From: Flavobacterium galactosidilyticum | GTDB lineage: Bacteria > Bacteroidota > Bacteroidia > Flavobacteriales > Flavobacteriaceae | Assembly (NCBI RefSeq): GCF_020911945.1 | Contig: NZ_CP087135.1 | Coordinates: 2,282,001 to 2,346,000 of the forward strand | DNA length: 64,000 nt | Direction: 5' to 3' | Notes under the pieces: model-generated | What the model was told of the DNA's origin: nothing | Databases searched by the model: none | Seen by the model: only the letters and a program-made list of their open reading frames with translations | Program-made: the position numbers and the translations under genes | In this document: piece after piece, positions 3,204 through 20,803 of the stretch | How positions within the stretch are numbered: position 1 is the stretch's first letter | Layout of the letters: the number at the start of each line of letters is the position of its first letter

Positions 3204-3519
3204 AATGTTTTTTAGGAGCTTTTTCCAGCTATCCGCTACAATCTTTTCTTTTTTTTTGAAAAAAGAATTAATAAAAAGCAAAAGTAAGCAAAACGGCGAA
3301 AACCGTTACTATATAGTGGTTTATAAAGTGGTAGTACAAAGTTGGAAGACTGTGTACTTTAGTTTTTGGGCTTGAAATGACAAGGTTAGGTTACTAAATC
3401 GTTACTGGTTAATACCTAAATAAAATACTATAACCGTTTATACTTCAGTTATTTGCATCATTTTTCATATTTACTTGTAACTCAATGAAAGTTAATTTTA
3501 AACATTAAATTTTTGAGTT
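3204..3519. other. Intergenic region upstream of integrase, likely ICE left end
   Basis: No gene is visible. There is a T/A hairpin (3246-3254 with 3259-3267). Bases 3325-3341 carry a GTGGTAGT motif that recurs upstream of traE. The integrase promoter should lie in the last 100 bases, but no exact TAnnTTTG box with good spacing was found. Confidence 0.5.
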
Positions 3520-4785
3520 ATGGAGAAGACAAAAAAATCCACGTTCAAACTACTTTTCTACCTAAAGAAAAATGAACCGAAGAAGAATGGAACAGTTGCA
3601 ATTATGGGGCGTATTACCGTTGATGGTAAACCAACATCTTTCAGTACAAAATTAGAAATAGATCCTAAAATATGGGATTTAAAACACGGTAGGGTTTTAG
3701 GCAAGAGTACCCAAGCATTGGCAATCAACCTTAAATTGGATAAAATAAGATTGCGCATAGACCAGCATTATGATGAAATGTTTAAAGATGAAGGTTTCGT
3801 TACAGCACAAAAACTAAAGATTTCCTTTTTAGGTATCGGTGTTATGGCCGATACAATTCTTACTGTTTTTGCAGATCACAATGGCGACTTTAAAAAAATG
3901 GTCGATAAAGAACAACGTTCTGCAAGCACTTATGCGAAATATGATATTGTTTATAGACACTTAGCTGAGTTTATCCAATTGCGTTATTACAGACCCGATA
4001 TGGCTTTCAGAGAACTTACACCAGATTTTATTCGTGAGTTCGACTTCTTTCTGCGTGTAGATAAGGAATGTACGCATAATACCGTATGGGTTTATACGAT
4101 GCCTGTCATCCGAATGGTAGAGCTTGCTATTAAAAAAGGACTAATCAGAAAAAATCCTTTCGAAGATTACGAGATTACGATGAACGAGAAAGATCGGGGT
4201 TATCTGCTGAAAGAAGATGTGGAGAAGATTATGGTTCATAAAGTAGATGCAAGGTTTGACTTAGTCCGGGATTTATTTGTATTCAGTTGCTTTACAGGTT
4301 TATCTTATGCCGATATTAAGAAGTTAAAGCGAAGCAATATCCAATCATTCTTTGACGGGCATCAATGGATCATAAGCAGGCGTAAAAAATCAGACATTGC
4401 ATCAAATGTGCGTTTGCTTGAAATACCTAAAAGAATAATTAATAAATACGTGGGTGTTATGAGGAATGAACTTGTTTTCCCTATACCATCTAATGCTACT
4501 TGCAACACCCATATCCGCAAGGTTGCAGGGCAGGCAGAGGTTTTTCCAGAGCATAAAATTGGTTTTCATACAGCCAGGCATACTTTCGGAACAATGTTTC
4601 TGACCGAAGGTGTTCCACTTGAAAGCCTTAGCAAAATGATGGGGCATAAAAACATTTCTACCACACAGATTTATGCTAAAATTACCAGCCAAAAAATCAG
4701 TAAGGATATGGATTTGGTTTCAGATAAATTCCAATCTATGGAACGTGCATTTTTAGCTACTAAGGAAGAGCTTGTTGTTGGATAG
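3520..4785 (+). CDS. int: Tyrosine recombinase (ICE integrase, IntDOT-like)
   Basis: This 421-residue protein integrates and excises the element by strand exchange at att sites. Its order is an N-terminal arm-binding region (1-95), a SAM-like core-binding domain (about 110-215) and a catalytic domain (about 225-405). Catalytic residues visible are H-x-x-R in HTARHTFG, the histidine of MMGHKN and the nucleophile tyrosine in TTQIYAKI. The first catalytic arginine is replaced by serine in FTGLSYADI, as reported for IntDOT. The gene reads away from the chromosomal genes into the element and is followed by a strong terminator. The start is preceded by an A/T-rich stretch rather than a Shine-Dalgarno sequence, as is normal in this phylum. 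Confidence 0.93.
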   Translation: MEKTKKSTFKLLFYLKKNEPKKNGTVAIMGRITVDGKPTSFSTKLEIDPKIWDLKHGRVLGKSTQALAINLKLDKIRLRIDQHYDEMFKDEGFVTAQKLKISFLGIGVMADTILTVFADHNGDFKKMVDKEQRSASTYAKYDIVYRHLAEFIQLRYYRPDMAFRELTPDFIREFDFFLRVDKECTHNTVWVYTMPVIRMVELAIKKGLIRKNPFEDYEITMNEKDRGYLLKEDVEKIMVHKVDARFDLVRDLFVFSCFTGLSYADIKKLKRSNIQSFFDGHQWIISRRKKSDIASNVRLLEIPKRIINKYVGVMRNELVFPIPSNATCNTHIRKVAGQAEVFPEHKIGFHTARHTFGTMFLTEGVPLESLSKMMGHKNISTTQIYAKITSQKISKDMDLVSDKFQSMERAFLATKEELVVG

Positions 4786-5460: not shown

Positions 5461-5838
5461 ATGAACATCACAGGAAGATTGACGAGAGATGCAGAGGTAC
5501 GCACAACGTCACAGCAAAAACAAGTAGTAAACTTTTCGGTAGCAATCAACGACAGCTACCGTAACAAACAGGGCGAACGCATAGAACAGACGACCTATTT
5601 TGATTGCTCCTATTGGATAACGCCCAATGTTGCCAAAATCCTAACAAAAGGCTCGTTGGTGGAATTATCGGGCAGGGTAACTGCAAGAGCGTGGACAGGC
5701 AATGACGGAGAAGCACACGCAGGACTGAATTTTCACACCTCCCAAATCAAACTGCACGGAGGTGGTAAAAAATTAGAAACTGTACAAGCTACCGTAGAAA
5801 CAGCCACTAAAAAAACAGAGGACGACCTCCCATTTTAA
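5461..5838 (+). CDS. ssb: Single-stranded DNA-binding protein
   Basis: This 125-residue OB-fold protein starts MNITGRLTRDAEVRTT, the usual SSB opening, and ends with the acidic tip DDLPF that contacts replication and repair partners. It is shorter than most chromosomal SSBs because it lacks a long flexible linker, which is common for plasmid and ICE copies. It should coat the transferred strand during conjugation. It opens a plus-strand run of ICE genes with short gaps up to 11613. Confidence 0.95.
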   Translation: MNITGRLTRDAEVRTTSQQKQVVNFSVAINDSYRNKQGERIEQTTYFDCSYWITPNVAKILTKGSLVELSGRVTARAWTGNDGEAHAGLNFHTSQIKLHGGGKKLETVQATVETATKKTEDDLPF

Positions 5839-5873: not shown

Positions 5874-6947
5874 ATGGCACATAATATCAATTTCAACGAG
5901 AGAACAGGACGTTATTCATTCTTTAGCGTACAACAAAAAGCGTGGCACGGTTTGGGGCAAATCGTAGAGCAATACCCAACAAGCGAGGAAGCTATCAGAC
6001 ACGCAGGATTAGATTATGAAGTCGTAAAATCTCCTCTATTTACCAAAGGTTCGGGTATTGTCGAAACGGCAAACGGCATTGAGATAGGCAGTAGCGAATT
6101 GGAAGTACCTAACTATTTCGCCAACATACGCACCGATAACAATGTAGTATTAGGTGTAGTTGGTAAGGATTACCACATCGTACAAAACCGTGAAGCCTTT
6201 AATTTCTTTGATGCTATTGTAGGCGGTGGCGAGGGTATTCTGTATGAAACCGCAGGAGCGTTAGGCAACGGAGAGCGCATATTTATCACAGCCAAATTGC
6301 CCGACTATATCCGTGTAGGTAATGGTGATGATGTAACAGAAAAATACATTTTCCTAACTACTTCGCACGATGGTAGCGGAAGTATCACAGCCGCATTTAC
6401 ACCTGTCAGAATTGTTTGCCAAAATACGCTAAATGCTTCGCTACGCAGTATGACCAATGTAGTTCGTATCAAACATACTTCGGGAGCAAAACAACGTATC
6501 GAAAACGCCCATAAAATTATGGGACTGGCGAACACTTTGAGCAACCAATTAGAGGACATTTTTAATGAATGGGCAAGCGTAAAAGTAACAGACCGAGAAG
6601 TAAGAAAGCTAATCCAATTGGCACTTTGCCCGAATAAAGAAACGTTTGACTTAATTAAAAAAGGTGCAGAAGATGAAATTTCAACCTTGTTTAAAAACAC
6701 CGTTGATGATGCTTTTTCTTACGCGATGATAAGCGACACGCAACAAATGGATACTACTAAAGGCACATTGTTCGGAGCGTACAATGCCGTTACAGGCTAT
6801 TATCAGAATGTACGCAATTACAAAAATGATGAAGCCAAGTTGCAGAGTATTGTATTGGGTGGTACTGCCCAACTCAAATCACAGAAAGCATTTGACTTGT
6901 GTACCTCTTTTGCAACGGATGGTGCGGAAATCTTAAACCTTAACTAA
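5874..6947 (+). CDS. DUF932 domain protein (phage/plasmid-like)
   Basis: This 357-residue protein has the DUF932 opening MAHNINFNERTGRYSFFSVQ and the typical WHGLGQ box at about residues 24-29. A central VLGVVGKDYHIVQNREAF segment is also characteristic. The family is common on plasmids, phages and ICEs; its biochemical role is not established. It is probably co-transcribed with ssb (35-base gap). The length is normal and no defects are seen. Confidence 0.9.
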   Translation: MAHNINFNERTGRYSFFSVQQKAWHGLGQIVEQYPTSEEAIRHAGLDYEVVKSPLFTKGSGIVETANGIEIGSSELEVPNYFANIRTDNNVVLGVVGKDYHIVQNREAFNFFDAIVGGGEGILYETAGALGNGERIFITAKLPDYIRVGNGDDVTEKYIFLTTSHDGSGSITAAFTPVRIVCQNTLNASLRSMTNVVRIKHTSGAKQRIENAHKIMGLANTLSNQLEDIFNEWASVKVTDREVRKLIQLALCPNKETFDLIKKGAEDEISTLFKNTVDDAFSYAMISDTQQMDTTKGTLFGAYNAVTGYYQNVRNYKNDEAKLQSIVLGGTAQLKSQKAFDLCTSFATDGAEILNLN

Positions 6948-6999: not shown

Positions 7000-7482
7000 A
7001 TGGCAAATTGGTGTAGTAATACGGTTGTTTTCGAGGGTAAACCCAAAGCAATCGAACAGATACAGAAGCTATTCAAGTTAATGGCAGAACAGGAACTAAA
7101 AGAAAAATGTGGACAGTTACCCGACTTTATTTCGGAAGATAACGGAGGTTATTTCTTTGCTACCTACCAGTATGAAGGCGATACAGACGTATTTCAATAC
7201 GAAACAAAATGGTCGCCTAATATGGAAGTGGTACAAAAAATAGCAGAACACTATAAAGTGAATTTCATACAGGATTATGAGGAATTGGGTTGCTTGATAT
7301 ATGGCAGAGCAACATTTGCTGACAAGCTACTCACAGATATTTATTTGGAAGACGAAGATTTTGAAAAATTTCAATTTGACCAAGAAACCGATACTTATCA
7401 TTTTGAGGGTAAAGAATACGACAGCGAATGGGAAATATTAGAAACCTTGTTAGAGCAGAAAATAGCCAATCATCAACCTTAA
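7000..7482 (+). CDS. DUF1281/YubB-like ferredoxin-fold protein
   Basis: This 160-residue acidic protein opens MANWCSNTVVFEG. This N-terminus marks the YubB/DUF1281 group found on plasmids, phages and ICEs. A second conserved patch reads YETKWSPNMEVVQKIAEHY. The role is unknown; proteins of this group are usually in leading regions of conjugative elements. It lies in the ssb-PRTRC run, 52 bases after the DUF932 gene. Confidence 0.75.
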   Translation: MANWCSNTVVFEGKPKAIEQIQKLFKLMAEQELKEKCGQLPDFISEDNGGYFFATYQYEGDTDVFQYETKWSPNMEVVQKIAEHYKVNFIQDYEELGCLIYGRATFADKLLTDIYLEDEDFEKFQFDQETDTYHFEGKEYDSEWEILETLLEQKIANHQP

Positions 7483-7493: not shown

Positions 7494-7829
7494 ATGGAAA
7501 CGAAAGTAATAGCCACCAAGTTTGTCCGCTATGATGTACCCGAATTGGAAACCCTACAATTTGCAAAGGTTTATCTATTGAGGGAAAAACTGAACAAAGG
7601 CGAAAAAATGAACCGAGCCGAAAAGAATTGGCTTGCAGACGCAGTAAACCGAAATGCCTATTTCAAAAAAGCAGTTCCCTTGCACGGCTATCGGTTTGGT
7701 TTTGAAGATGTTTTGAAAAACTATGTAGTGAAGCAATACGGCAATTGGTCAGAATACAATGCACCCGACAAGACAAGCCTTAGAAGCATTGTATATGGTA
7801 GGATTGAACAAATAGCACAAATTAATTAA
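7494..7829 (+). CDS. ICE hypothetical protein (111 aa)
   Basis: I do not recognise a named family. The open frame extends upstream into the previous gene, but the ATG at 7494 (METKVIATKFVRYD), 11 bases after the preceding stop, fits the spacing of the run. The protein is basic with many aromatic residues and no membrane segment. Small proteins of this look are common between ssb and PRTRC genes in Bacteroidota ICEs. Confidence 0.7.
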   Translation: METKVIATKFVRYDVPELETLQFAKVYLLREKLNKGEKMNRAEKNWLADAVNRNAYFKKAVPLHGYRFGFEDVLKNYVVKQYGNWSEYNAPDKTSLRSIVYGRIEQIAQIN

Positions 7830-7839: not shown

Positions 7840-8034
7840 ATGAAAATAACAGACATAAATGGTTGCCAAATCGAAGTAACAGATTTAAAGGAAGCCATAA
7901 AAATAGCAAGACGATATAAAGAATATCGCCACGAGGACAGCAATTTTTCGGAGTTTGACAAAAGACAGAAAACCTATTGGTCGGATATGTACGAGAAACT
8001 AAGAGCAATCAAAGCACAATTAACAACATCTTAA
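7840..8034 (+). CDS. ICE hypothetical protein (64 aa)
   Basis: This short charged protein begins MKITDINGCQIEVTDLKEAI and has a central helix rich in R, K, E and Y. It is in the operon run, 10 bases after the previous stop. No function can be assigned. Position and spacing support it as a real gene. Confidence 0.65.
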   Translation: MKITDINGCQIEVTDLKEAIKIARRYKEYRHEDSNFSEFDKRQKTYWSDMYEKLRAIKAQLTTS

Positions 8035-8045: not shown

Positions 8046-8660
8046 ATGAATACTAATTTTTTCAATCAGATAGCACAGTTGGACTTTACAGGGGTATTAC
8101 AACTGAACATTTCAAAAAGAGCAGAAAATAACCTAATCGTTTCGGTTATCCTCAATAACGAACAATGCGGAGATAACGCCAAAAACCTAATTCCGCCACT
8201 AATATTTAACGCAACACCCCAAGAGTTTGACGATGGTTTTTTTGAGCAGATAACCGCACCCATCAAAACCGTTTCGGGTTTAATGGTGGACATGGAAAAA
8301 TTTCTAAAACAATTAGAAGAAGTCAAAAAACAATCGGCTATGGAGAAAGAAAAAGCCGACAAACAGAAGAAAGAACAGGAAGCCAAAGACAAGAAATTTA
8401 AAGACGGAATGGCAAAGGCGGATGAGTTAGAAAAAGAGGGAAAATTCCGTGAAGCGTGGATGAAAGTACCCGAGATAACGGAGTTTCCCGAAAAAGCGGA
8501 CGAGATACGCAAACGTAAAATAGCATTGTCTGACAAGTTTGCAACACCGAGCCTTTTTGGAGCAATGGAAGAAACAAAACCCGAACTGCAACAAGAGGAA
8601 AAAGTTACAGTAGATTATCCTACTGATGAAACGGACGAAGAAGAAGAACAAGAGTATTAA
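8046..8660 (+). CDS. PRTRC system protein E
   Basis: This 204-residue protein begins MNTNFFNQIAQLDFTGVLQL; I chose this ATG over an in-frame upstream one because the latter overlaps the previous gene. Residues 1-95 form the conserved PRTRC-E part. About 95-145 is a Lys/Glu-rich coiled coil, and a strongly acidic tail (TDETDEEEEQEY) closes it. The ParB-related, ThiF-related cassette is known only from sequence surveys of plasmids and ICEs, so the role is unknown. Protein C follows after 17 bases. Confidence 0.85.
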   Translation: MNTNFFNQIAQLDFTGVLQLNISKRAENNLIVSVILNNEQCGDNAKNLIPPLIFNATPQEFDDGFFEQITAPIKTVSGLMVDMEKFLKQLEEVKKQSAMEKEKADKQKKEQEAKDKKFKDGMAKADELEKEGKFREAWMKVPEITEFPEKADEIRKRKIALSDKFATPSLFGAMEETKPELQQEEKVTVDYPTDETDEEEEQEY

Positions 8661-8677
8661 CCCAAAAAATCAGATTT

Positions 8678-8896
8678 ATGTTATTAGCAACGCAATTAGA
8701 GCGAGTTTTTATACTCAAAGATAAAGGACAGGACATCAAACTGACCGACCCCGAACCACGTTGGAGCGTGGAAGCCGTAATGAATTTTTATGCCAATATG
8801 TACCCTATTTTGACAACGGCAAAAGTATCAGCACCGCAAATAAAAGACGATGCAGTTGAGTACAAATTTGAAAGCGTAATGGGTACAAAGGGTTAA
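8678..8896 (+). CDS. PRTRC system protein C, candidate ubiquitin-like modifier
   Basis: This 72-residue protein has the PRTRC-C hallmarks: a central PRWSVEAVMNFYANMYPIL block and the C-terminus VMGTKG. Its size, predicted strand-helix-strand order and terminal glycine suit a beta-grasp ubiquitin-like protein that an E1 could adenylate. I recall such a proposal for PRTRC-C from comparative genomics; the fold assignment here is inference. E2-like and E1-like partners lie downstream in the same run. Confidence 0.85.
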   Translation: MLLATQLERVFILKDKGQDIKLTDPEPRWSVEAVMNFYANMYPILTTAKVSAPQIKDDAVEYKFESVMGTKG

Positions 8897-8912
8897 ACCA
8901 AAAATCAAAACG

Positions 8913-10088
8913 ATGAATTATGCAACCACATATCCTATCGGGAATTATCAGCATACCCGAACAGAAACGACAACGGCAATTGCACCGACAGCTAAACGAG
9001 TTCGCACAATGGATGCAAAGACCAAAAGATGCAAACCAAGTGCAGAAAGACAAGCGGAAAGCAGTACCAATAGCGATGTTGCCAATGGTTTTCTAAAGTC
9101 GGTATTCCTGCCTAAACTGAAAACGGAACAATCCGTACAGGCTTGTAAGGAAACCGCAAAAACAGAGCGGAATTTTTATCAATCCCTTTCCAACCTCGCA
9201 GAGCATTACAGTATTGAACCAATGCAAACACAAATTTATGGCTATCCCTACAATATAGCTTTGGCGATGTGGGATATAAAAACCAAGTTAAAACGTATCC
9301 ATTTAAATTGGGATAGTTTGCAATTGGTACAGAATAGTAAGAAAACCTTTTTTGTAAGTGAGGAACGGTACGATACAAGAACGACCTTGTATTATATTCC
9401 TATGGTTCCGCTCTTTAAAATGCTCAACGACAAAAGGCGTAAAAAGACCGCTCAGTTATTGGTTTGCGTATGCAGTTATCTGTATCACATTGCTGATATT
9501 CCGTATTACAGACAAGAAAATAGCTACCTGTTTTGGATGTATGAAATGATGACCGATTGGGTGGAACAGGACGATGAAACAGACGAAACAGAAAGATACA
9601 AAAGCGAGTTGAAGCAAGCCGAACAAATTGGCGACAAAATGGAACAGAAACTATTCAATCGTATCAATTTACAACTATTTAAACAGCGTTTAAACATCTT
9701 TAAAAGCCTTGATGAATTTGACCAAGAATGTTGGCAATTGGCTTGTAAAGTTTTTGAACTTTTTACGGAATATCCAAAAACAAGTATTTTCAAAAACGCA
9801 CCCATTTCCGAACAAGACCCTTACAATGATGATTATGACAATGAAACCATTGGAATGGAAAAGTACATTTCATTTGTAGCAGATACCAAAGGTTGGCTGT
9901 ATGAAAATCTTTCGGATAGCATTAACAATGAATTTAATGAGTACGGAGCAATGGCAGAACCCACCATTAGCAAACACTTTGACGGAAGTGAAATAACCGC
10001 AACCAACCTTGATTTTGAGAACCGCTTGTTTCCGTTACTGAACCATTTATGCGGTTTATTAGATGAATATAAAATGACGACAAAATGA
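8913..10088 (+). CDS. PRTRC-associated hypothetical protein
   Basis: The 391-residue reading from ATG 8913 is not assigned to a family. From about residue 50 on it looks like a real soluble protein rich in aromatic and charged residues, with a conserved-looking core around YYIPMVPLFKMLNDKRRKK. The first 45 residues (Thr/Ala/Arg-rich) look like a wrong-frame reading of an overlapping small gene at 8920-9096, so the true start may be ATG 9009 or later. It overlaps the protein B start by ATGA and so is probably translationally coupled to it. Confidence 0.7.
   Translation: MNYATTYPIGNYQHTRTETTTAIAPTAKRVRTMDAKTKRCKPSAERQAESSTNSDVANGFLKSVFLPKLKTEQSVQACKETAKTERNFYQSLSNLAEHYSIEPMQTQIYGYPYNIALAMWDIKTKLKRIHLNWDSLQLVQNSKKTFFVSEERYDTRTTLYYIPMVPLFKMLNDKRRKKTAQLLVCVCSYLYHIADIPYYRQENSYLFWMYEMMTDWVEQDDETDETERYKSELKQAEQIGDKMEQKLFNRINLQLFKQRLNIFKSLDEFDQECWQLACKVFELFTEYPKTSIFKNAPISEQDPYNDDYDNETIGMEKYISFVADTKGWLYENLSDSINNEFNEYGAMAEPTISKHFDGSEITATNLDFENRLFPLLNHLCGLLDEYKMTTK
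8920..9096 (+). CDS. Small ORF (58 aa) overlapping the start of the next gene
   Basis: In another frame, ATG 8920 opens 58 codons to TAA 9094. The product begins MQPHILSGIISIPEQKRQRQ and is a basic, Gln-rich, helix-like peptide. Its composition is more natural than that of the overlapping frame in the same bases. Its start lies 23 bases after protein C, like the other gaps in this run. No family is recognised. Confidence 0.5.
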   Translation: MQPHILSGIISIPEQKRQRQLHRQLNEFAQWMQRPKDANQVQKDKRKAVPIAMLPMVF

Positions 10089-10807
10089 ACAATTTAAACG
10101 ACATCACCGAGAATTTTGGAACATTATATTTTCCAAAATCTGCTTTGGTTTTTTATGAAACCAAAGGTATAAATATAGATATGTATGTGGAGCATTTTGA
10201 TATGGATAGAAACGGAAACCCTATCAATGCACACCCTTTGACCGTAAAAGAAGCCAATGTATTGGCAAAATCATTACATACCGATGAAGAAAAGAACAAA
10301 GCCTTTTTAAAGCCAAAGAGAATTTTGTCTACCAACATTTTACACATCAATCCGAGTGAAAAAGGTACAGTACTTTGGTACACCAAAGCACAGCAAAGAC
10401 AACTGTATTTTGTAAATGGTTTGGGCATTCCCAACGGCAAGGCTAAAGTACCGCCAATGCTTTGGTTTGCAAATAAAAATAGCCTTTCTGTATTTGCTTT
10501 GTCAAGCGATAGAAGACCCATAGAAAAAACGCCTTTGCATTACGCTCCATTTTTTAATGTGTACGAAAATGGCAACGTATGTATGGGAACAGTAAATATT
10601 GATATTCAAAATTCGGCTTCGGTGGAAGAATTTATACAAGCGTGGGAAAGCTATTTTTTCAACAGTTATTTCAGCCATTTATTGGGGAATTACAATCCGA
10701 TAAAAGGAAATTGTGTAACCATTTGGAAAGACCTAATTGGTACAGACACCCCCTTTCCAAAAGAAGTATTGAAACCAAATAACAAAACACTTAAAAACCT
10801 ATTGTGA
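10085..10807 (+). CDS. PRTRC system protein B, E2-like
   Basis: This 240-residue protein matches PRTRC protein B. The segment at about residues 155-171, FFNVYENGNVCMGTVNI, closely resembles the active-site stretch of ubiquitin-conjugating E2 enzymes (a Pro/Asn-Val-Tyr run followed by Gly-x-Val-Cys), which puts a candidate catalytic cysteine at 166. The N-terminal half carries KSALVFYE and an ICE-typical MDRNGNPINAHPLT block. Start and stop overlap both neighbours, so translation with the E1 gene is probably coupled. The E2 activity is inference from the motif. Confidence 0.88.
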   Translation: MNNLNDITENFGTLYFPKSALVFYETKGINIDMYVEHFDMDRNGNPINAHPLTVKEANVLAKSLHTDEEKNKAFLKPKRILSTNILHINPSEKGTVLWYTKAQQRQLYFVNGLGIPNGKAKVPPMLWFANKNSLSVFALSSDRRPIEKTPLHYAPFFNVYENGNVCMGTVNIDIQNSASVEEFIQAWESYFFNSYFSHLLGNYNPIKGNCVTIWKDLIGTDTPFPKEVLKPNNKTLKNLL

Positions 10808-11613
10808 TGAATACAGCTAAACAAAAAATACATTTTACAGACAGAGATTTAATCAATCCTACCAATCCGATTTTGATAAATGTAATCGGTGCAGGTGGAA
10901 CAGGTTCAAAGGTTTTGACCGCCTTAATGGAAATGAACCACAGTTTAACTGAGTTGGGACACGCAGGACTACAAATCCGCCTTTGGGATGATGATGTAAT
11001 TACCCAAGCAAATTTGGGCAGACAGCGTTTTGCAGAATGTGAAATTGGATTGTACAAATCCGTTGCACTAATTAACAGAGCCAACCGATTTTCGGGAACA
11101 AATTGGAAAGCCGAAACGGTAAAATTTGAAAAAGACCGTTTGGATAAATTGCCCGAAAATGCAGGAGCAAGTATTTATATTTCTTGCGTGGACAGCGTAA
11201 AAGCAAGGTTTGGGATTGCGGATATTTTGAATATTCTGAACAACGGTAAAGCCTATTCCAACCGCCCACGTTATTGGTTAGATTTCGGTAACAGCCAGCA
11301 CACAGGACAAGTGCTACTATCTACAATAGGAAGAATTAAACAACCCAATTCCGAGAAATACGAAACGGTGGCAAGCCTGCCATTTATTACTGATGAATTT
11401 GGCGAACTTTTAAAACAGTCTGAAGAGCAGGACGACACGCCAAGTTGCAGTTTAGCTGAAGCATTAGAAAAGCAGGATTTATTTATTAATTCGTCATTGG
11501 TACAAATGGGTTGTTCTTTGCTTTGGGGCTTGTTCCGCAATGGAATGACGGAATACAGAGGATTTTTTCATAATCTGAAAGATTTTAATACCCACCCGAT
11601 AAAAGTCACCTGA
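10807..11613 (+). CDS. PRTRC system ThiF family protein (E1-like adenylating enzyme)
   Basis: This 268-residue protein has the ThiF/E1 nucleotide site GAGGTGSK (28-35), the acidic WDDDVITQANLGRQRF block (60-75) that binds ATP-Mg, and a conserved cysteine-bearing loop TPSCSLAEALE (C214) where E1 enzymes carry their thioester cysteine. I take ATG 10807, which overlaps the protein B stop as TGATG; a GTG three bases earlier is possible. It would activate a small modifier, most simply protein C. No MPN/JAB protease gene or ParB gene is visible nearby. Confidence 0.9.
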   Translation: MNTAKQKIHFTDRDLINPTNPILINVIGAGGTGSKVLTALMEMNHSLTELGHAGLQIRLWDDDVITQANLGRQRFAECEIGLYKSVALINRANRFSGTNWKAETVKFEKDRLDKLPENAGASIYISCVDSVKARFGIADILNILNNGKAYSNRPRYWLDFGNSQHTGQVLLSTIGRIKQPNSEKYETVASLPFITDEFGELLKQSEEQDDTPSCSLAEALEKQDLFINSSLVQMGCSLLWGLFRNGMTEYRGFFHNLKDFNTHPIKVT

Positions 11614-11982: not shown

Positions 11983-13032
11983 ATGATGAATATTTTCCTA
12001 GATTCAAATATACTATTTCAAGACTATTTTTTTGATAATAAGTCAAATAAGAAAATACTTGATTATTGTAAAGAAGGTCTGTTGAACCTGTATATGTCTG
12101 AAATTGTTCGTTTGGAATTGCGAAGACAGTTTCAAAGAGAACTTGAGGATAAAAATAGGGAAATAAAAAAAATAATTAAAGATGCTATTCGACTTAAAAT
12201 TGAGGCAGAAATAACAGAAATATCTATTTCCGAACAGTTAGAAAAATTTGACACTTTCTATAAAAGACTAACTTACAATGATAATTTTTTTTTATTACCA
12301 TATTATAACGACTTTTTACCGGATCTTGTAGAAAGAGCAATTTATAGAAAGAAACCATTTACTGAAGAAAAATCAGAATTGAAAGATGCTATAATTTGGA
12401 AAACATATTCTCACTATGTTGAAAGCAATGATACTTCGGATTGTATCCTGTTAACAAATAATACTTCGGATTTTTGCTCAAAACAAGACAAATCAAAAAT
12501 CCATCCAGATTTAGAATTAGATACGACCAGATTTTCAGTAATCAATAAGTCTTTCGAATTTATTAAAACTAATGCAACTGTTCTCGAAGGTCCTGAGAAC
12601 AAATTCCAAGCATACATTAATCAAATTGATATTGACCAAGAATTTGTTTTGAATATCCTAAAAGAGAATTTCGAAAAGGCAATTGAAGACGAAATACACA
12701 AGAAAATAGATAATCTCCATCCTTCCGATATACTTTCTGATGATTATTTTTTTGATGGGCAGATGGTAGCGTATGGATGCGAAATTTTAGACTGCGAAGA
12801 GATTGAACATGAAATTCTTGGTGACACAGCTCTTATTTCAGGTGTAGTTTATGCTAGTTGTGAAGTTGAGATTTTACAATATAATGCAGTACGTGACCCT
12901 GGAGAAGATAGATACTCGAATGTTGGTGAAAAAAATGTAACTTTTAAGGTGTTTTTCAATTTTGATCTAAAAAAGGATGAGATATGTTCTGATTTTGAAA
13001 TTACTGATGTTGAAGTTGGTGATATAGATTAA
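11983..13032 (+). CDS. PIN domain nuclease-like protein (DUF4935-like), cargo gene
   Basis: This 349-residue protein starts MMNIFLDSNILFQDYFF. PIN acidic residues are in place: D7, E40 (YMSEIVRLELR), D135 (ELKDAIIW) and D163 (LTNNTSDF). Residues 45-120 are a charged helical insert, and a C-terminal domain (about 220-349) is unrecognised. PIN domains cleave RNA in toxins, and longer PIN proteins occur in phage defence. The gene stands alone between PRTRC and tra genes, is more A/T-rich than its neighbours and has no antitoxin-like partner next to it. That suggests a late-arriving accessory gene. Confidence 0.75.
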   Translation: MMNIFLDSNILFQDYFFDNKSNKKILDYCKEGLLNLYMSEIVRLELRRQFQRELEDKNREIKKIIKDAIRLKIEAEITEISISEQLEKFDTFYKRLTYNDNFFLLPYYNDFLPDLVERAIYRKKPFTEEKSELKDAIIWKTYSHYVESNDTSDCILLTNNTSDFCSKQDKSKIHPDLELDTTRFSVINKSFEFIKTNATVLEGPENKFQAYINQIDIDQEFVLNILKENFEKAIEDEIHKKIDNLHPSDILSDDYFFDGQMVAYGCEILDCEEIEHEILGDTALISGVVYASCEVEILQYNAVRDPGEDRYSNVGEKNVTFKVFFNFDLKKDEICSDFEITDVEVGDID

Positions 13033-14512: not shown

Positions 14513-14962
14513 TTAATCGCTACTATTGAATTGGAAAGTGAGTTTCTTCTCATTTCCAAAACTATCAGAAATCCATACATCAAATGATTGCGACACAGTG
14601 CATGAAGAAGTGTAATACAATCGGAACTGCTCTGTTGGTAAAGGATATAAATCGTTTGGTAAGTACGCAAGTTCATTAGAATATCTTAAAGTTCCCTGAC
14701 CATCAAACTGAAAATAACGGATAAAATATTGCGTATCGCTGTAATTACCGCTTCGCTTTATCGCCATCCTTATTTCTACGGTTTGCCCATTCGATACATC
14801 TTTTTGAACAGGCATAACCTGCACTTCAAAAGGAAAATCGTTCTGTATTTCGAGTTCATCATCTTTGCTACAAGATACCAAAGTAACCGAACTTGTGAGG
14901 ATTACCAGCAATACATATACTGGCAGTAATCCTCTTTTGAATTGTTTGAAAAATGTTGTCAT
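14513..14962 (-). CDS. traQ: Conjugal transfer protein TraQ (DUF3872-like)
   Basis: This 149-residue exported lipoprotein has a lipobox ending in TLVSCSKDD (Cys31). The mature part reads as a small beta domain (FPFEVQVMPVQ, then VEIRMAIKRSG) typical of Bacteroides TraQ. In CTnDOT TraQ is the last gene of the transfer operon. Its exact role is unclear, but it belongs to the mating apparatus. traO precedes it by 11 bases. Confidence 0.85.
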   Translation of the reverse strand: MTTFFKQFKRGLLPVYVLLVILTSSVTLVSCSKDDELEIQNDFPFEVQVMPVQKDVSNGQTVEIRMAIKRSGNYSDTQYFIRYFQFDGQGTLRYSNELAYLPNDLYPLPTEQFRLYYTSSCTVSQSFDVWISDSFGNEKKLTFQFNSSD

Positions 14963-14973
14963 TATTATACGTT

Positions 14974-15534
14974 TTAAAAGTTAAACCTTAATCCCACACC
15001 TGCGGACGGTCGGAATTGTTTCATATCCGTACCCCATAAAACCTTTGTACGTCCTTGCAGGACTAATACAAATCGGTCGGACAGATACGTTTCAAAAGTC
15101 AACCTACCGCCAGCTCCGTAAATGAAATTGTCTTCACTCACTATTTTCGCTCCGTCATCCAACATTGCTTCGCCTCGGTTGATGGTTTCATAACCGATGA
15201 CGCCAGATATTCCAGTATTAAGCGTTATGTTTTTTCGGGCATCGCCTAAAAGGAATAAACTGTAACCGCCTTCAGCAGTATAAGTTTCCTTCGGAATGCG
15301 CAAGTCTTTATAAGAATGGTATTGGTGCGTATATTCCAACGCCCAAAATTGGTAATTGCCGTTTTTGCCATTTACGGTCATTGCTACATTGATGTAATAA
15401 TCGTTTCCGATTTTATCATTAGACAATACACCAGCACTTACTTCCAAGCCTTTTTGCTTAGGTAACATTCGTTGTGCCTGTGTAGCGGTAATGCCCATTA
15501 ACACAAGCATTACGGTATGGATATACTTTATCAT
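14974..15534 (-). CDS. traO: Conjugal transfer protein TraO
   Basis: This 186-residue protein has a signal peptide cleaved after TATQAQ and a body of alternating beta strands ending in aromatic GVGLRFNF, as in an outer-membrane barrel. The family is the Bacteroides TraO protein. It sits in the fixed order N-O-Q of the operon. TraP, a primase often found between O and Q in CTnDOT, is absent. Confidence 0.88.
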   Translation of the reverse strand: MIKYIHTVMLVLMGITATQAQRMLPKQKGLEVSAGVLSNDKIGNDYYINVAMTVNGKNGNYQFWALEYTHQYHSYKDLRIPKETYTAEGGYSLFLLGDARKNITLNTGISGVIGYETINRGEAMLDDGAKIVSEDNFIYGAGGRLTFETYLSDRFVLVLQGRTKVLWGTDMKQFRPSAGVGLRFNF

Positions 15535-15554
15535 CTTATTGTTTTAATAGGTTA

Positions 15555-16448
15555 TTAAAATTTCAGGTGCATATCATTAACCAAACGAGCCTTGATTAAA
15601 TCCGAATTTTCTACCTGAAGCGTTTGGTGTCTGCCACCGTTTTTCTCAAAGATTTCAATCAGCAAAACCTTGTCATCGGCAATGGTAAACTGGTCTAAAA
15701 GGAATACGTTTTGTTCGATTGCTTTCCCGCCAATCTCATTCAATGGCTTATAAGTACGTAATGGTATCATTGGTCTTTCCTGCACTACGGTACGCTTGGC
15801 TACTTTTTTATCTACTACTTTGAAATTGATAAAATCAATTCCGAAAGGCACATTGGTACGGTTTCTCAATTCTGTATGGAAATAGTATTTGCCATTGTGT
15901 ATGTAAATTCCTTTTAGGATAAACTGAATACCGAAACTTTTAGCACCGATATGCTTTACAATTCGCTGGTCTTTTTTGTAAATCGTTTCCAAAAGCAAAC
16001 CTGACAATGATGGCGAATTGTTACCCAATTCTTCAAAAAGCACATCATTTCCATTTTCCTTATCCACTGCTTTTTGCATTGTCAGCAGATCGTAACTCAA
16101 CGCTTCCGGATAAGCACTATAATATACATTGAAGCTGTAAAAGCGACCGTCATTGGTAATTACCGAAAAATTGGTTTCAGGCACAAAATCTTTTACCGAT
16201 GCTTTTACACGAAGTACATTTTCTGCGTCTTCTGCCTTTCCTGCAATCAGGTATTCACTTCCCAAATCGACATATCGTATAGCGGTTGGGAAAATCAAAT
16301 GAGTAGTCTTGTCATAGGTTACTTGCATTTGATAGGGTTCTATCTTGCCCAAAGCAAGCGGTGCTTTTAGACTGTCTTGTGCAAAAGTGTTTACGGCAAA
16401 GCCGATGATAAGGGCAAAAGCCCAAAATGTTTTTATTTGATTTTTCAT
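15555..16448 (-). CDS. traN: Conjugal transfer protein TraN (VirB9-like)
   Basis: This 297-residue protein has a signal peptide ending NTFAQD and a TraN beta-sandwich. Typical blocks include LIFPTAIRYVDLGS near the N-terminus and DFINFKVVDKK and RTYKPLN later. By position and fold it is the VirB9-like part of the outer core of the type IV channel, next to the VirB10-like TraM. It starts 24 bases after traM. Confidence 0.92.
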   Translation of the reverse strand: MKNQIKTFWAFALIIGFAVNTFAQDSLKAPLALGKIEPYQMQVTYDKTTHLIFPTAIRYVDLGSEYLIAGKAEDAENVLRVKASVKDFVPETNFSVITNDGRFYSFNVYYSAYPEALSYDLLTMQKAVDKENGNDVLFEELGNNSPSLSGLLLETIYKKDQRIVKHIGAKSFGIQFILKGIYIHNGKYYFHTELRNRTNVPFGIDFINFKVVDKKVAKRTVVQERPMIPLRTYKPLNEIGGKAIEQNVFLLDQFTIADDKVLLIEIFEKNGGRHQTLQVENSDLIKARLVNDMHLKF

Positions 16449-16472
16449 CTTTTTAATTATTTGAGTTAAATA

Positions 16473-17789
16473 TTATTTTTTAGAAACAAGGAAAACCTGG
16501 TGTCCTGCTTTTAGCGTAACCTTTGGTGTTCTTATTTTTTTTGCGAAATAACCCGAAATACCTTGTACGGCACTTTTACTAAGGTCGGAACCAATCTGTT
16601 GACCTGTTGAGGAGTTCATACTGAAACTTGAACCTGTGGCATTTCCCATATTTGCAACAATGTCTGTTACCGCATTCCGTTCAGGCGAGTAGGGAACGTA
16701 CAAACCTTGTTGTCCGTCAAGGTCGTAGATGGTTATATCTACTGGGATAATATTACCCTCCAATTCTATGGAAGTAACTTTTAGATGTAATCTGCCACCT
16801 TGAAATTTCCCGATTGCCGTTAAAATTGTTCCCTGAGGAATCGTACGGTTAGGCGTTTGAGCAGGTTCTAATAAACGTAGTCGTACACCGCTTTCGCCAA
16901 TTATTGTCTGTGTTTCTTGTATGCTGGCTTTTACGCTATTTTTTGGTTGAGCCACTTGTTCTACAGATCCAGCAGTATAGAAACCTCGGTTCTTGTTTTC
17001 GCTCCAGTCTGCTAAAAAAGCACTATCGGTAGGTTCTCTGTACAAAGCCGATACAGCTTTCTTTCTTGTAGGTGTGAATGCTACAAAATATTCTTTCTGA
17101 GAATTTGAAGAAGAACCTCGGCTAGCACTGTCGGTGCTTACAGGTTTTTCGGTATTTCCTCCCGAAGGCAGATACTTTGAAGCCATCTGATACGATTTTT
17201 CCATCAACGTCAATTGGTCATTTACAGTTACACCGACAGGTATATCTTTTTCAGCCAATTTTTCTTTTAGTTCGTCCAATTGCCTGCGTAGTTCTTGTGT
17301 TTCGCTGTTATTATCCTGATAAAATGAACCTAATGTGCTTTGTGCATTTCGGTAACTGTTTAGTGTAGAAGTGCCCGATTTTCCAGTCATCATACCATTG
17401 TTTTGGTCTTCTTCGGGCAATTCTTCTTTAGTCTGCTGTGTGCTATCGTTATTCCAATAATCCGATAGCGTAGTTAGGGCATTTCGGCTTTCCTGGTCTT
17501 TCTGTTCCAGCATATCTTGCTCATAAGCTTTTTGTTTATCATCCTGCATTCCTGCTTCGGTAGCCTGTGGAAAAGCATCGTTTAGTCCGATGTTTTCCAT
17601 TTCTTTTTTATCTGCCGAGGGTTTAAATATCAGGTATAAACAACCCATAAAAACAATCCCCATTAAACCAAAAATGAGTGGTTTTTTAAATCGTTCAATG
17701 GCACTCTTTTTATCCTCCGTAAGGTTGGATACTTTGTTTTGGTCGCCTTCCTCAACCAGAATGCTGACCCTTTTTTCATTTTCTTTCAT
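16473..17789 (-). CDS. traM: Conjugative transposon protein TraM (VirB10-like)
   Basis: This 438-residue protein has a cytoplasmic N-terminus, one membrane segment (about 35-58, FGLMGIVFMGCLYLIF), a long Gln/Glu/Ser-rich periplasmic region with a predicted coiled coil, and a C-terminal VirB10-like beta domain ending TLKAGHQVFLVSKK. VirB10 proteins span both membranes and gate the channel. It overlaps traL by 14 bases. Confidence 0.92.
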   Translation of the reverse strand: MKENEKRVSILVEEGDQNKVSNLTEDKKSAIERFKKPLIFGLMGIVFMGCLYLIFKPSADKKEMENIGLNDAFPQATEAGMQDDKQKAYEQDMLEQKDQESRNALTTLSDYWNNDSTQQTKEELPEEDQNNGMMTGKSGTSTLNSYRNAQSTLGSFYQDNNSETQELRRQLDELKEKLAEKDIPVGVTVNDQLTLMEKSYQMASKYLPSGGNTEKPVSTDSASRGSSSNSQKEYFVAFTPTRKKAVSALYREPTDSAFLADWSENKNRGFYTAGSVEQVAQPKNSVKASIQETQTIIGESGVRLRLLEPAQTPNRTIPQGTILTAIGKFQGGRLHLKVTSIELEGNIIPVDITIYDLDGQQGLYVPYSPERNAVTDIVANMGNATGSSFSMNSSTGQQIGSDLSKSAVQGISGYFAKKIRTPKVTLKAGHQVFLVSKK

Positions 17790-18063
17790 AAAATTTATTT
17801 TTAAAAATTGTTGTCAATGTGTCCTTCAGCTTTTCAGGACTTTCTTTCTTTTTGAGAACAGGATTTTCGATATGCTCAATGACCAAATTGTTATCGGCTT
17901 TGCCTGCATCATACCATACTTTTAAAATAACTCCTGCGGTAAGCAGTAGATAGCCTATAAAAAAGTATAAGGTGTATTTATGCTGTTTTCCAACGGGTAA
18001 TGCCCGCCATCGTTCGTCCAACTTGTTAAAATACCTATCCATATTTGCTCTTAATTTTTTCAT
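17776..18063 (-). CDS. traL: Conjugal transfer protein TraL (DUF3989-like)
   Basis: This 95-residue protein has one membrane helix (about 29-49, YTLYFFIGYLLLTAGVILKV) and charged ends, matching small TraL proteins that precede traM in Bacteroidota elements. It overlaps traM, so translation is coupled. It probably helps assemble the inner-membrane complex. Confidence 0.8.
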   Translation of the reverse strand: MKKLRANMDRYFNKLDERWRALPVGKQHKYTLYFFIGYLLLTAGVILKVWYDAGKADNNLVIEHIENPVLKKKESPEKLKDTLTTIFKNKFYERK

Positions 18064-18084
18064 GTCTTAAATTATTATTGGCTA

Positions 18085-18516
18085 TCACATTTTAAACCCT
18101 CTTTTTTGGGAAGAAATGTGTTGTTTAGGATCTTCAGATACTTGGGCTACGGCTTCCTTTAATGTAGGAACCGAACCTGTTGAAAGATTTGTTAGTTCTG
18201 ATTTCTTCAATAGTTGTCCGTAGCGGTCTGTCCTTTCAATGTCCATCTTTTGTACATCGAAAATGCCGTTTTTATGTCTTATCCACATATTACATTCAAT
18301 CCTCGGCTTGTCATCTCCATTCCATTGGAGGTAAGTCGATAATAAAAAAAGTTCATGTCTATTCGGTTTTTTCGTACCGTTGTGAGAGGCTTCCAAGTAT
18401 TCATTAATGCTTTCTTTTAACTTGCCCGGATAAGATGCTTCCGTTTGGAAGTAACCGTTGTATCCTTTATCTGTCAGTGTTTTCACGAATGTGTCTAAAT
18501 CAAGTAACTGTTTCAT
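18085..18516 (-). CDS. Hypothetical protein inside the tra operon
   Basis: This 143-residue soluble protein begins MKQLLDLDTFVKTLTDKGYN and has a conserved-looking central part (NMWIRHKNGIFDVQKMDIER). It lies between traK and traL with small gaps and the same strand. No CTnDOT tra letter corresponds to it as far as I can tell. Flavobacterial ICEs often have an extra gene here. The function is unknown. Confidence 0.7.
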   Translation of the reverse strand: MKQLLDLDTFVKTLTDKGYNGYFQTEASYPGKLKESINEYLEASHNGTKKPNRHELFLLSTYLQWNGDDKPRIECNMWIRHKNGIFDVQKMDIERTDRYGQLLKKSELTNLSTGSVPTLKEAVAQVSEDPKQHISSQKRGFKM

Positions 18517-18527
18517 AATCTTTGATT

Positions 18528-19151
18528 TTAACGTTGAATAACTTCAATGTCCTTATTCTCTACCACGGCAAATTTTTCAATATTGAAACCTTGCGGGTTA
18601 TTGTCTGAACGGACAGAGTTTACAAGGAAACAGGACGTTACCAAGCTTCGCTTTGTCACATTGCTGGAACGGATGATGAATTGCTTAGCGTAAGTACGCA
18701 CTGCATAAGGATGATTGTCGAAATTGCAGACCACACTATCCACCTCGATACGTTGCTGTACATTACCCGATATGATACGGTTGTAATAGCCTTTTTCGGA
18801 AAGATCTTTGTAATAATCAAAGGCACTTTTATCGGCAAGATTGAACGCCCGTTTCATATTGCTTTCAATGGCATTTTTGTCGGGTGCAAGTGTAAAAAAG
18901 AGTTCGTGAAAACGTCTTACGTGTTCCCTTGCCTCAACTGGACGGTTGATGGACGCATCTTGCGAAAGAGCCAACATCAATGATTTCCCATTGTCCAGTA
19001 CATAAACTTTTTGGCGTTGTTCTGTTGCAAAGCTGTAGGACTGCCATACGGCATATCCTACAACGCTAATGCATAGAACGGCAAACACAATGGCGTACAG
19101 CCTTATCTGTCTAAAGCTGTTTTCGATATTTCTGAGTGTTTTAAATTCCAT
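18528..19151 (-). CDS. traK: Conjugative transposon protein TraK (VirB8-like)
   Basis: This 207-residue protein opens MEFKTLRNIENSFRQIRLYA, has one membrane helix (about 18-38) and then a periplasmic VirB8-like domain, with the family block HELFFTLAPD. VirB8-like proteins nucleate the inner-membrane part of the channel. It is 21 bases after traJ. Confidence 0.92.
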   Translation of the reverse strand: MEFKTLRNIENSFRQIRLYAIVFAVLCISVVGYAVWQSYSFATEQRQKVYVLDNGKSLMLALSQDASINRPVEAREHVRRFHELFFTLAPDKNAIESNMKRAFNLADKSAFDYYKDLSEKGYYNRIISGNVQQRIEVDSVVCNFDNHPYAVRTYAKQFIIRSSNVTKRSLVTSCFLVNSVRSDNNPQGFNIEKFAVVENKDIEVIQR

Positions 19152-19172
19152 TTCTTAAGTGATTAATTTTAT

Positions 19173-20168
19173 TTACTTATTAATTAGCCTGCCACCAATA
19201 TTTCCTGCAACAGACCCAGCTCCAGCTCCGGCAAGATTTCCCGATTTCATTGCAGTTTGGTTAACATTACGGGTAAAGTTTCCGGCACCCCCTGCCTGAA
19301 TAATCCAACCCGTTACCGTTGGAATTGTAAAATATCCTACAATACCGATAATCATAAAAATGATATACACGGTATTACTTGTATCGGGTATATAGGTTGG
19401 GTCGGCAAGCATTTCGATATCCCGTTCCAATATCAGCGATTGTATCCTTGCTAACATCGAACTGAACAAATCTGAAACTGGAAGCCAGAGGTAAACACTT
19501 ATATACCTTGTAAACCATTGCGAGAGCGTGGATTGAAAACCGTCCCACACGGAAATAGCAAAGGCAATTGGTCCGAGTATGGACAACACTATCAGAAAAA
19601 ATGTTCGTATGGTATCAATAACCAATGCAGCCGCCTGAAAAAGTATTTCCAGTAAATTGCGAAACCATTCCTTTATTGCTTTCTCAATCTTGTAGGCTTG
19701 CCTGTCCATATACATTCCTGCCATTGTTCCCACATCAGAAGGCGACCAGCCCAATTCCTCCAATTTCTTATCGAATTCCTCATCCGATGCCATATAAGCA
19801 GTTTCGGGATTTCTTACCATTGCTTCGTATTCCAATTGGTCTTTCTGCTGTTGCAATTTATTGAGGTCAAGTACCTGGTCTTCGAGAATGGAATGGGTTC
19901 CTGTTACTATCGGATTGAGAATTGCATTGATGGTTCCCAACACGATTGTTGGGAAAAACATAATGCAAAGTCCCAAAGCAAACGGACGTAACAATGGAAA
20001 CATATCAATTGGTTCGGCTCGGCTTAAAGCCTGCCAAACCTTTAATGCCACATAGAACAAAGCGCCTAATCCGGCCACACCTTTAGCTACTCCTGCCATA
20101 TCACCGGCAAGTGGCATCATATCATCGTACAGCGAACGCAGTACTTCGTGAAGATTATTCCATTCCAT
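19173..20168 (-). CDS. traJ: Conjugative transposon protein TraJ (VirB6-like)
   Basis: This 331-residue protein has several membrane segments, including one about 58-80 and a cluster near 175-215 (LFQAAALVIDTIRTFFLIVL), and a Gly/Ala-rich C-terminus. The block LRPFALGLCIMFFPTIVLG is a TraJ signature. It is the polytopic VirB6-like channel component. It starts 2 bases after the DUF4141 gene. Confidence 0.92.
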   Translation of the reverse strand: MEWNNLHEVLRSLYDDMMPLAGDMAGVAKGVAGLGALFYVALKVWQALSRAEPIDMFPLLRPFALGLCIMFFPTIVLGTINAILNPIVTGTHSILEDQVLDLNKLQQQKDQLEYEAMVRNPETAYMASDEEFDKKLEELGWSPSDVGTMAGMYMDRQAYKIEKAIKEWFRNLLEILFQAAALVIDTIRTFFLIVLSILGPIAFAISVWDGFQSTLSQWFTRYISVYLWLPVSDLFSSMLARIQSLILERDIEMLADPTYIPDTSNTVYIIFMIIGIVGYFTIPTVTGWIIQAGGAGNFTRNVNQTAMKSGNLAGAGAGSVAGNIGGRLINK

Positions 20169-20170
20169 TT

Positions 20171-20803
20171 TTACCAGTATTTTTGGTTAGAAGTTCCATA
20201 CAAGTCAAGCACTCGTTTGGCATCGTTTTTCTTTTTCGCTCTCAGGTAGCTTACAGATATGTTCTTGTTGGTGTAATAGCGAACAAGACTGTGATAATGC
20301 TTTACCTCTTTGTACACACGGTCGATAACATCCATACGCTCTTTGTCATTTAGCGAAAGGCTGGACGAGGTTATAATCTGCTTCAATTCCTTTAGCAGTT
20401 CCGTACTTTCATTTAGCAATGAAGAATAACCGTTGCCGATGGCTACCAATTCCTGTGGCGAAAAATTTGGATCGTTCATCATCTTGCCAAAATTCTGCAC
20501 ATACATTTCCGAAACATCACCTACCAACAAAGCAGTCTGTTGCACTTTACGAGCATCTTTTACAAGGTTGTTTATAGCCTGTAGTTTGTCGTAATACTCT
20601 TTGCCTTGCTTATACACTTTTTCCACTTCCTTAAAATTCTTAACCACATTGCTTACAGTGGAAGAAGTCTGTATAATTTCGTTCGCACTATTGAGGATGC
20701 CTGAAGCCAGATTTGCAGGATCTGTAACCACGAATTGTGCTTTTGCGGACGGTGCTACGGCAAGCGTTAATGCCATACACACCATAAAAATGATTTTTTT
20801 CAT
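20171..20803 (-). CDS. traI: DUF4141 conjugal transfer protein (TraI-like, VirB5-like)
   Basis: This 210-residue protein has a signal peptide (cut near SAKAQF) followed by long amphipathic helices with the pattern FVVTDPANLASGILNSANEI, the DUF4141 opening. In the CTnDOT order it occupies the traI position between the VirB4-like ATPase and traJ. By structure it resembles VirB5 pilus-tip proteins, which is inference. A traH gene, present in some elements, is missing. Confidence 0.85.
   Translation of the reverse strand: MKKIIFMVCMALTLAVAPSAKAQFVVTDPANLASGILNSANEIIQTSSTVSNVVKNFKEVEKVYKQGKEYYDKLQAINNLVKDARKVQQTALLVGDVSEMYVQNFGKMMNDPNFSPQELVAIGNGYSSLLNESTELLKELKQIITSSSLSLNDKERMDVIDRVYKEVKHYHSLVRYYTNKNISVSYLRAKKKNDAKRVLDLYGTSNQKYW

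Follow-up and report, generated by a model that had tools for sequence, protein, structure and literature searches.

Can a mobile element carry a complete ubiquitin-like conjugation pathway whose modifier is made ready for use? The question is raised by a PRTRC operon of Flavobacterium galactosidilyticum, which lies at positions 8046-11613 of the 64 000-nucleotide stretch of DNA analysed here (the window; contig NZ_CP087135.1, positions 2,282,001 to 2,346,000, in a genome that is a single contig of 3.53 Mb). An earlier note on this DNA had read the locus as a compact three-gene set inside an integrative conjugative element (ICE), in which an E1 of the ThiF family activates a small ubiquitin-like protein (C) and hands it to an E2-like protein (B). 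We find that the PRTRC cassette is real and has five genes, and we consider it probable that the operon is a dedicated ubiquitin-like conjugation pathway in which C is produced already ending at its glycine, with no need of a JAB protease.

The ubiquitin-like reading of PRTRC is not new: E1/E2-type membership had already been proposed for parts of it, as the earlier note stated, and the genes were predicted in 2006 as operon type 6d in a survey that we take to be that of Iyer et al. In the excerpts available (PMC1779556), type 6d comprises a ubiquitin-like protein, an E1, an E2, an alpha-helical protein and a JAB protease, with Bacteroides thetaiotaomicron in the list; the ubiquitin-like protein is standalone with a conserved terminal glycine, the E2-like protein has a conserved Cys and a downstream His, the JAB is predicted both to process and to remove the modifier, and some such operons are located on conjugative elements. 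What we add is a relation between C-terminal tails of protein C and JAB genes, the absence of an adjacent JAB gene from all 43 Bacteroidota loci, an association with a gene for single-stranded DNA-binding protein (SSB) and a distinct Bacteroidota protein F. The covariation of tails and JAB is new in that we did not find it in the literature searched, mostly open-access papers, where PRTRC occurred only as an annotation or in expression tables and no experiment on it was found. One such table, in an excerpt from a B. thetaiotaomicron transcriptome study (PMC10434189), lists the genes for PRTRC E, E2 family D and ThiF (BT2645, BT2648-49) with values of 0.35-0.44 in a column that we take to hold p-values. 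Many of the text matches look false; in two that were checked, the word matched was the plasmid name pRtrCIAT899 or the promoter PRtrc1O. Papers on leading regions that mention DUF932 or PRTRC were also sought, and none was found.

Gene content of the PRTRC operon

We read the open reading frames (ORFs) of the locus together with Pfam and NCBIfam profiles. There are five plus-strand genes in the order E-C-F-B-ThiF; E and F had gone unnamed when the set was counted as three, although the coordinates given then span both. PRTRC system protein E (8046-8660, 204 aa) matches PF19556 with 249 bits and TIGR03741 with 45.9 bits, both over cut-off. Protein C (8678-8896, 72 aa), the predicted ubiquitin-like modifier, matches Prok_Ub PF14454 (96.7 bits, cut-off 25) and PRTRC_C TIGR03738 (60.4 bits, cut-off 45.95). 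The F position (8913-10088, 391 aa) matches no Pfam or NCBIfam family above cut-off. Protein B (10085-10807, 240 aa), the predicted E2, matches Prok-E2_D PF14460 (122.8 bits, cut-off 25) and falls just under the cut-off for PRTRC_B TIGR03737 (127.2 bits against 131.45). The ThiF-family protein (10807-11613, 268 aa from the ATG at 10807), the predicted E1, matches PRTRC_ThiF TIGR03736 with 236.3 bits (cut-off 144.75).

The sequence features first noted in these proteins are all present. C ends MGTKG with the terminal glycine as its last residue, Gly72; B carries the E2-like stretch FFNVYENGNVCMG, which contains C166; and ThiF contains GAGGTGSK and WDDDVITQANLGRQRF, its predicted catalytic Cys being C214 from the ATG or residue 215 if the GTG at 10804, also possible, is the start. 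The statement that C, B and ThiF overlap or abut holds only in part: B and ThiF overlap by one base with the ATG start or by four with the GTG start, but C and B are parted by the 1,176-bp F gene.

Conservation of the predicted E1 and E2

We surveyed relatives by ThiF similarity. A match over the PRTRC cut-off was found in 10 of 296 genomes of a sample of the phylum, and a match at 1e-25 in 32 of 395 genomes of a sample of the order, the F. galactosidilyticum genome included. In a plasmid collection, 374 records matched at 1e-5; 33 of 40 plasmid records among the matches listed carry a PRTRC ThiF annotation. The protein is present in many Bacteroidota elements as well. Two further ThiF copies are broken by in-frame stops (G277:C1:1280491-1281282 and G506:C8:1047-1846), and both genomes also have an intact copy.

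For comparison in depth, 131 loci were scanned for ORFs with per-protein profiles: the window, 10 plasmid loci, 40 Bacteroidota genome loci and 80 further genome loci. The last are the best 80 of 339 confirmed and were found with a proteobacterial ThiF seed, so that Burkholderiales are over-represented. The 131 divide into 43 Bacteroidota loci, window included, and 88 others, and some of the stretches end at contig ends. The recurring gene order is (ParB)-E-C-F-B-(A)-ThiF, where A is the JAB protein.

Eleven positions of ThiF are the same in all 131 loci: the four glycines of the nucleotide loop (G29, G31, G32 and G34), D62, N70, R73, Q74, K85, D130 and R135. The Cys is present in 129 of them. 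A ThiF profile compared with solved structures gave 55 distinct sequences at E ≤ 0.001, with the E1 of NEDD8 the best (5.7e-10) and ThiF, MoeB, UBA6, UBA5 and Cap2 (1.6e-7) also matched; the single sequence, used without a profile, matched none at 0.01. By these profile matches, the window ThiF is related in sequence to known E1 enzymes.

In B, the pattern N-x7-C-x-G (N158, C166 and G168) is invariant in all 129 loci with a B protein. H198 is kept in 123 of the 129, and four of the six exceptions carry a His two positions further on. Such a motif occurs in B more often than by chance: among the 760,791 residues of ORFs >150 aa in these loci, N-x4-G-x2-C occurs 134 times, 116 of them in B proteins, and P-x2-N-x4-G-x2-C occurs 116 times, every time in B. 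In the eukaryotic E2 motif the spacing from the Asn of HPN to the catalytic Cys is the same, N-x7-C.

In the loci scored, tails of protein C occur only with an adjacent JAB gene

The conserved glycine of C is found in all 126 loci aligned and the Lys before it in 124. The window protein stops exactly at this glycine, and C of Bacteroidota ends in Gly in every locus aligned. Elsewhere C may continue past the glycine as a tail, and some loci have an adjacent JAB gene, which sits between B and ThiF. We scored a tail and an adjacent JAB in 125 loci. A JAB gene and a tail occur together in 56, a JAB gene with a tailless C in 10, a tail with no JAB gene in none, and neither in 59 (Fisher p = 1.4e-25, a value far too small given the shared ancestry of the loci). 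Left out was L149, which has a 25-bit JAB match out of place. Outside Bacteroidota, tails occur in 56 of 66 loci with JAB and in none of 16 without it (Fisher 1.3e-10, again too small because of shared ancestry). When ThiF was clustered at 45% identity, a tail was found in 7 of 9 clusters with JAB and 0 of 10 without (7e-4). Fourteen further plasmid loci with a C gave the same empty class: two with JAB and tail, three with JAB and no tail, none with a tail alone and nine with neither, the nine including L203, which was counted so although it has a displaced ThiF and an uncertain JAB status. L199 and L200 were left out, with no C or a spurious match to it, and L215 and L216 are not in these counts. 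Eleven of the 12 tailless C proteins here end in Gly.

This relation gives a reason, from sequence, to think that the terminal glycine is the working end of C and that JAB trims what lies beyond it. Processing of a ubiquitin precursor by archaeal Rpn11 is described in the part of PMC6043591 available. There are 13 tailless loci with JAB overall, and the JAB ORF keeps its HxH...SxxD pattern in 12 of them, which suggests a second task for JAB, such as the removal of C from its targets.

The earlier note had seen no JAB gene, and none was found in the wider search: in the window genome there was no match to TIGR03735 (JAB protein A; a search made without a positive control) and none to Prok-JAB PF14464, a profile that does match in 8 of 14 control genomes. 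Supply of a JAB from elsewhere in the genome was rejected on this second result. We also rejected the idea that JAB absence is a peculiarity of this element. No JAB is adjacent to PRTRC in any of the 43 Bacteroidota loci, and the 59 of 125 loci that have no adjacent JAB include Acidobacteria, Pseudomonas and Alteromonas. Among the 31 other PRTRC-bearing genomes of the order, 24 have no Prok-JAB match and seven have one; it shares a contig with the PRTRC ThiF in four genomes only, at distances of 23 kb (G095), 46 kb (G394), 74 kb (G277) and 439 kb (G452, where the match is below cut-off).

Proposed pathway and points against it

The steps that we infer are as follows. ThiF, as the E1, would adenylate the Gly72 carboxylate of C and form a thioester with it through C214. 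C would then pass to C166 of B, the presumed E2, and B would attach it to a target, with E or F possibly acting as an adaptor or substrate receptor. In relatives with a tailed C, the JAB protease most likely trims the residues past the glycine. In the window set, since C already ends at glycine and JAB is absent, no maturation should be needed, and there is probably no dedicated eraser; without JAB, the modification may be one-way. If ubiquitin-like conjugation is confirmed, five small genes give transfer elements a whole pathway of this kind. Reconstitution in vitro should be easiest with the JAB-less form, since its C requires no processing and there is no protease to undo the modification, and the 2006 prediction becomes directly testable.

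Several results weigh against this reading. The link between tails and JAB is partly one of shared descent: in a tree of 84 scored rows, JAB and tails each change seven times, but only two to three independent pairs stand on supported branches, too few for significance. In these pairs the other trait changes the same way or does not differ, and never goes the opposite way. With 10 of 66 JAB loci tailless, trimming cannot be the sole job of JAB. C on a Pelobacter propionicus plasmid (L204, 4828-5031) ends GTKA and is the only tailless C scored that has no final Gly. Profile comparisons did not support C as a relative of ThiS/MoaD or B as a relative of UQ_con or Prok-E2_B: C against ThiS/MoaD gave an hhalign probability of 3.1, B against UQ_con (three proteins) gave 0.6, with the active-site segments paired in the sole aligned stretch, and B against Prok-E2_B (two proteins) gave 0.4. 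Neither the C nor the B profile matched a solved structure meaningfully in these sequence-based comparisons. Of 27 annotated plasmid loci, six, all on proteobacterial plasmids, have a gene named for the phosphoadenosine phosphosulfate reductase family at a distance of up to ~7 kb (L032, L033, L040, L196, L215 and L216), which a sulfur-chemistry reading could draw on. Such names can also denote DNA-modification or DndC-like proteins. The proposed relay from E1 through C to E2 is upheld by family membership, E1 profile matches and near-invariant catalytic positions in 126-131 loci, and not by the profile comparisons of C with ThiS/MoaD or of B with E2 families.

Bacteroidota protein F

Some UniRef relatives of the window F are named 'PRTRC system protein F'; a profile of F compared with solved structures gave nothing meaningful. 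Bacteroidota F and proteobacterial F have the same position and a similar size, and their direct hhalign comparison, made on sequence only, gave a probability of 0.2. An iterated model did match both, having mixed both seeds, and F as one family across phyla was rejected. The cross-phylum F marks in our gene-order layout are not evidence of homology, because of the direct comparison. By this comparison, no common family is detectable for the F proteins of Bacteroidota and Proteobacteria, which is a new observation. The excerpts of PMC1779556 call the alpha-helical protein of type 6d rapidly diverging.

The operon in its mobile element

The PRTRC genes are the end of a same-strand run that begins with SSB (5461-5838, plus strand; TIGR00621, 72 bits). 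Between them, all on the plus strand, are a DUF932/phage-plasmid-like protein (TIGR03299, by Pfam and NCBIfam; 5874-6947) and three small genes (7000-7482, Api92-like DUF1281_C; 7494-7829; and 7840-8034). From SSB through F, neighbouring genes stand 10 to 52 bp apart, whereas F overlaps B and B overlaps ThiF. A search for the Bacteroidota-type promoter pattern gave 4 matches against 6.53 expected, none near the operon. No PRTRC-ParB profile match was found in the first 30 kb of the window, in agreement with the lack of a ParB gene first noted.

The ICE setting proposed before is well supported, since an integrase, transfer genes and mobilization genes surround the operon: a tyrosine-recombinase integrase (3520-4785, plus strand; PF00589, PF13102 and PF17293), Bacteroidota-type conjugative transfer genes on the minus strand (14513-23335; TraM, TraN, TraK, TraJ and TraG by TIGR03779, TIGR03780, TIGR03781, TIGR03782 and TIGR03783, others by position), and a MobB relaxase (31124-32401; NF041325) and MobC coupling protein (33904-35901; NF041326), both on the plus strand. 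A search with the left flank did not define an end of the element, as it returned just that flank and a scattered repeat; positions 3207-3270, left of the integrase, are part of a repeat found at 18 other places in the genome, most of ~30-70 bases.

The window holds other genes besides. Just 3' of ThiF is a PIN-domain protein (PIN_12, 79 bits; 11986-13032), matched in 0 of 42 Bacteroidota PRTRC loci. A Gabija-type pair lies at 24144-28117 (GajA, 1035.9 bits to the best PADLOC model; GajB, 848.7 bits). A long metal-handling cargo spans 32901-57977, with ORFs named by eye as P-type ATPases, a multicopper-oxidase-like protein, an RND efflux pump and a cation transporter. Away from Bacteroidota, on two cyanobacterial plasmids, a PRTRC-like set adjoins a CBASS-like pair (DncV-like and SAVED) or type III CRISPR genes (L039, 7865-11062; L200, 1-2627).

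Which of these neighbours are constant? Of the 42 Bacteroidota loci examined, 39 have SSB upstream and in the same orientation; of the three others, L037 and L057 are divergent sets and L054 is cut by a contig end. In the same 42, DUF932 is matched in 27 and transfer genes of the window type in 15, the latter a lower bound as the stretches reach ~10 kb and some are shorter. We also compared TraG and PRTRC loci across the order, using 53 of 59 TraG rows (two partial or broken rows and four at 35-36% identity were left out) and 38 of 41 ThiF rows (one with stops and two pieces of a broken copy were left out). A PRTRC ThiF lies within 70 kb of TraG on the same contig in 21 of the 53 TraG loci and in none of the other 32. 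The share with PRTRC nearby is 13 of 18 where TraG identity is ≥91%, 5 of 21 at 71-88% and 3 of 14 at 55-57%. From the ThiF side, at least 21 of 38 have TraG nearby (two TraG candidates were scored per genome). Because PRTRC ThiF is near only these 21 of 53 TraG loci, with a share that falls with TraG identity, PRTRC is an optional module, and its link with SSB is closer than that with the transfer genes.

Outside Bacteroidota the neighbours differ. Of the 88 loci, 56 have a ParB gene upstream at a distance of up to 7 kb, as against 0 of 43 in Bacteroidota. By similarity search, SSB is near 4 of the 88 loci and dnaN near 3, two of each count being the loci that gave the query. Of the 27 annotated plasmid loci, 7 have dnaN (L035, L038, L194, L197, L198 and L200) or holA (L199) no more than 7 kb away.

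What might be modified, and alternative readings

There are two main ideas as to the target: DNA-handling proteins of the element, favoured by the neighbours, and proteins concerned with defence, favoured by the analogy with Bil and the cyclic oligonucleotide-based anti-phage signalling system (CBASS) and by Gabija on the element. The first we hold tentatively, as a possibility that falls short of an even chance. The ubiquitin-like protein would be put on element or host proteins that handle DNA (SSB, ParB, the clamp), which would aid transfer, establishment or partition. This is consistent with SSB at the head of the same-strand run in 39 of 42 Bacteroidota loci, as against 15 with a match to the transfer genes, with ParB upstream in other phyla and with dnaN or holA near plasmid loci; a plasmid map in an excerpt from one genome paper (PMC7466150) also labels PRTRC a partition system. 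However, a neighbour is not the same thing as a substrate, SSB and dnaN are rare near non-Bacteroidota loci, and with 32 of 53 TraG loci having no PRTRC within 70 kb, PRTRC is not needed for transfer.

A role in defence, as an anti-phage operon like Bil or CBASS Cap2 that tags phage or sensor proteins, seems to us unlikely. CBASS ubiquitin-like conjugation enhances anti-phage defence, as stated in the excerpts of PMC10097602; GajA and GajB are on the same element; and ThiF weakly matches the E1-E2 models of PADLOC (best 0.00032). On the other hand, none of E, C, F and B has a PADLOC match at 0.01, 12.5 kb separate the operon from the Gabija genes, and the constant neighbours, SSB in Bacteroidota and ParB elsewhere, are not defence genes.

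ThiF could instead activate C as ThiF and MoeB activate ThiS and MoaD, with C a thiocarboxylate-bearing sulfur carrier that serves biosynthesis or sulfur transfer and B no E2 at all. The matches of the ThiF profile to ThiF and MoeB fit this, as does the terminal Gly, which is common to small carriers and modifiers, and the reductase-named genes near six plasmid loci would too. But no such gene is inside the operon, C has no detectable similarity to ThiS/MoaD, and a carrier would not need the Asn and Cys of B that are invariant in 129 of 129 loci; the excerpts of PMC1779556 argue likewise for E1s linked to an E2 or JAB. We regard a sulfur carrier as improbable. In the window genome, the ThiS family PF02597 had no match, and no other carrier family was searched.

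More speculative, and slightly less probable again, is a narrower form of the DNA-handling idea, a write-only system in which B attaches the ready-trimmed C to SSB, or to one of its partners, during the single-stranded phase of the element or just after its establishment. The proteobacterial branch would do the same with ParB or the clamp, using JAB as both trimmer and eraser. A likeness can be drawn to eukaryotes, in which SUMO and ubiquitin act on PCNA. Least likely of all is addiction, in which modification and de-modification of host proteins would keep the element in the cell: the excerpts of PMC1779556 propose it for such operons generally and the patchy spread of PRTRC on mobile elements fits, but it needs an eraser opposed to the writer, and no Prok-JAB match was found in the window genome or in 24 of the 31 other genomes of the order with PRTRC.

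Comparison with known systems

Operon type 6d corresponds to the PRTRC genes: both have a small ubiquitin-like protein with a terminal glycine, an E1-like protein, an E2-like protein with Cys and His, and an alpha-helical protein. Type 6d was described with a JAB gene, whereas the window set and the 42 other Bacteroidota loci have none adjacent. Of the features of PRTRC, the window has C, ThiF, B with its Cys and downstream His, and protein E; it lacks the JAB protein A, a proteobacterial-type F and a PRTRC-type ParB upstream, where it has SSB instead. We did not take JAB as defining PRTRC, given the 59 of 125 scored loci that have none adjacent.

PRTRC shares its ThiF-family adenylation core with ThiF-ThiS and MoeB-MoaD. 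Unlike those pairs, it has an E2-like partner, and C has no significant similarity to ThiS/MoaD. Conjugation driven by E1 and E2 is also found in Cap2 of type II CBASS and in Bil. The E1 core of Cap2 is related to the window ThiF by the profile match given above; in contrast to Cap2 and Bil, the window set has separate genes for the E1, E2 and ubiquitin-like protein, with no cyclase, effector or JAB in the operon.

Within PRTRC, a Burkholderia aenigmatica plasmid (L031) shares with the window the order E-C-F-B-ThiF and the families of E, C, B and ThiF. It differs in having ParB upstream, a JAB (A) between B and ThiF, a C that ends GAKG-AHA and an F that is not detectably homologous. The JAB-less plasmid sets of Pseudomonas asiatica (L035), P. 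fluorescens (L040) and Alteromonas macleodii (L033) differ from the window in their upstream ParB gene but, like it, have a C that ends at the glycine.

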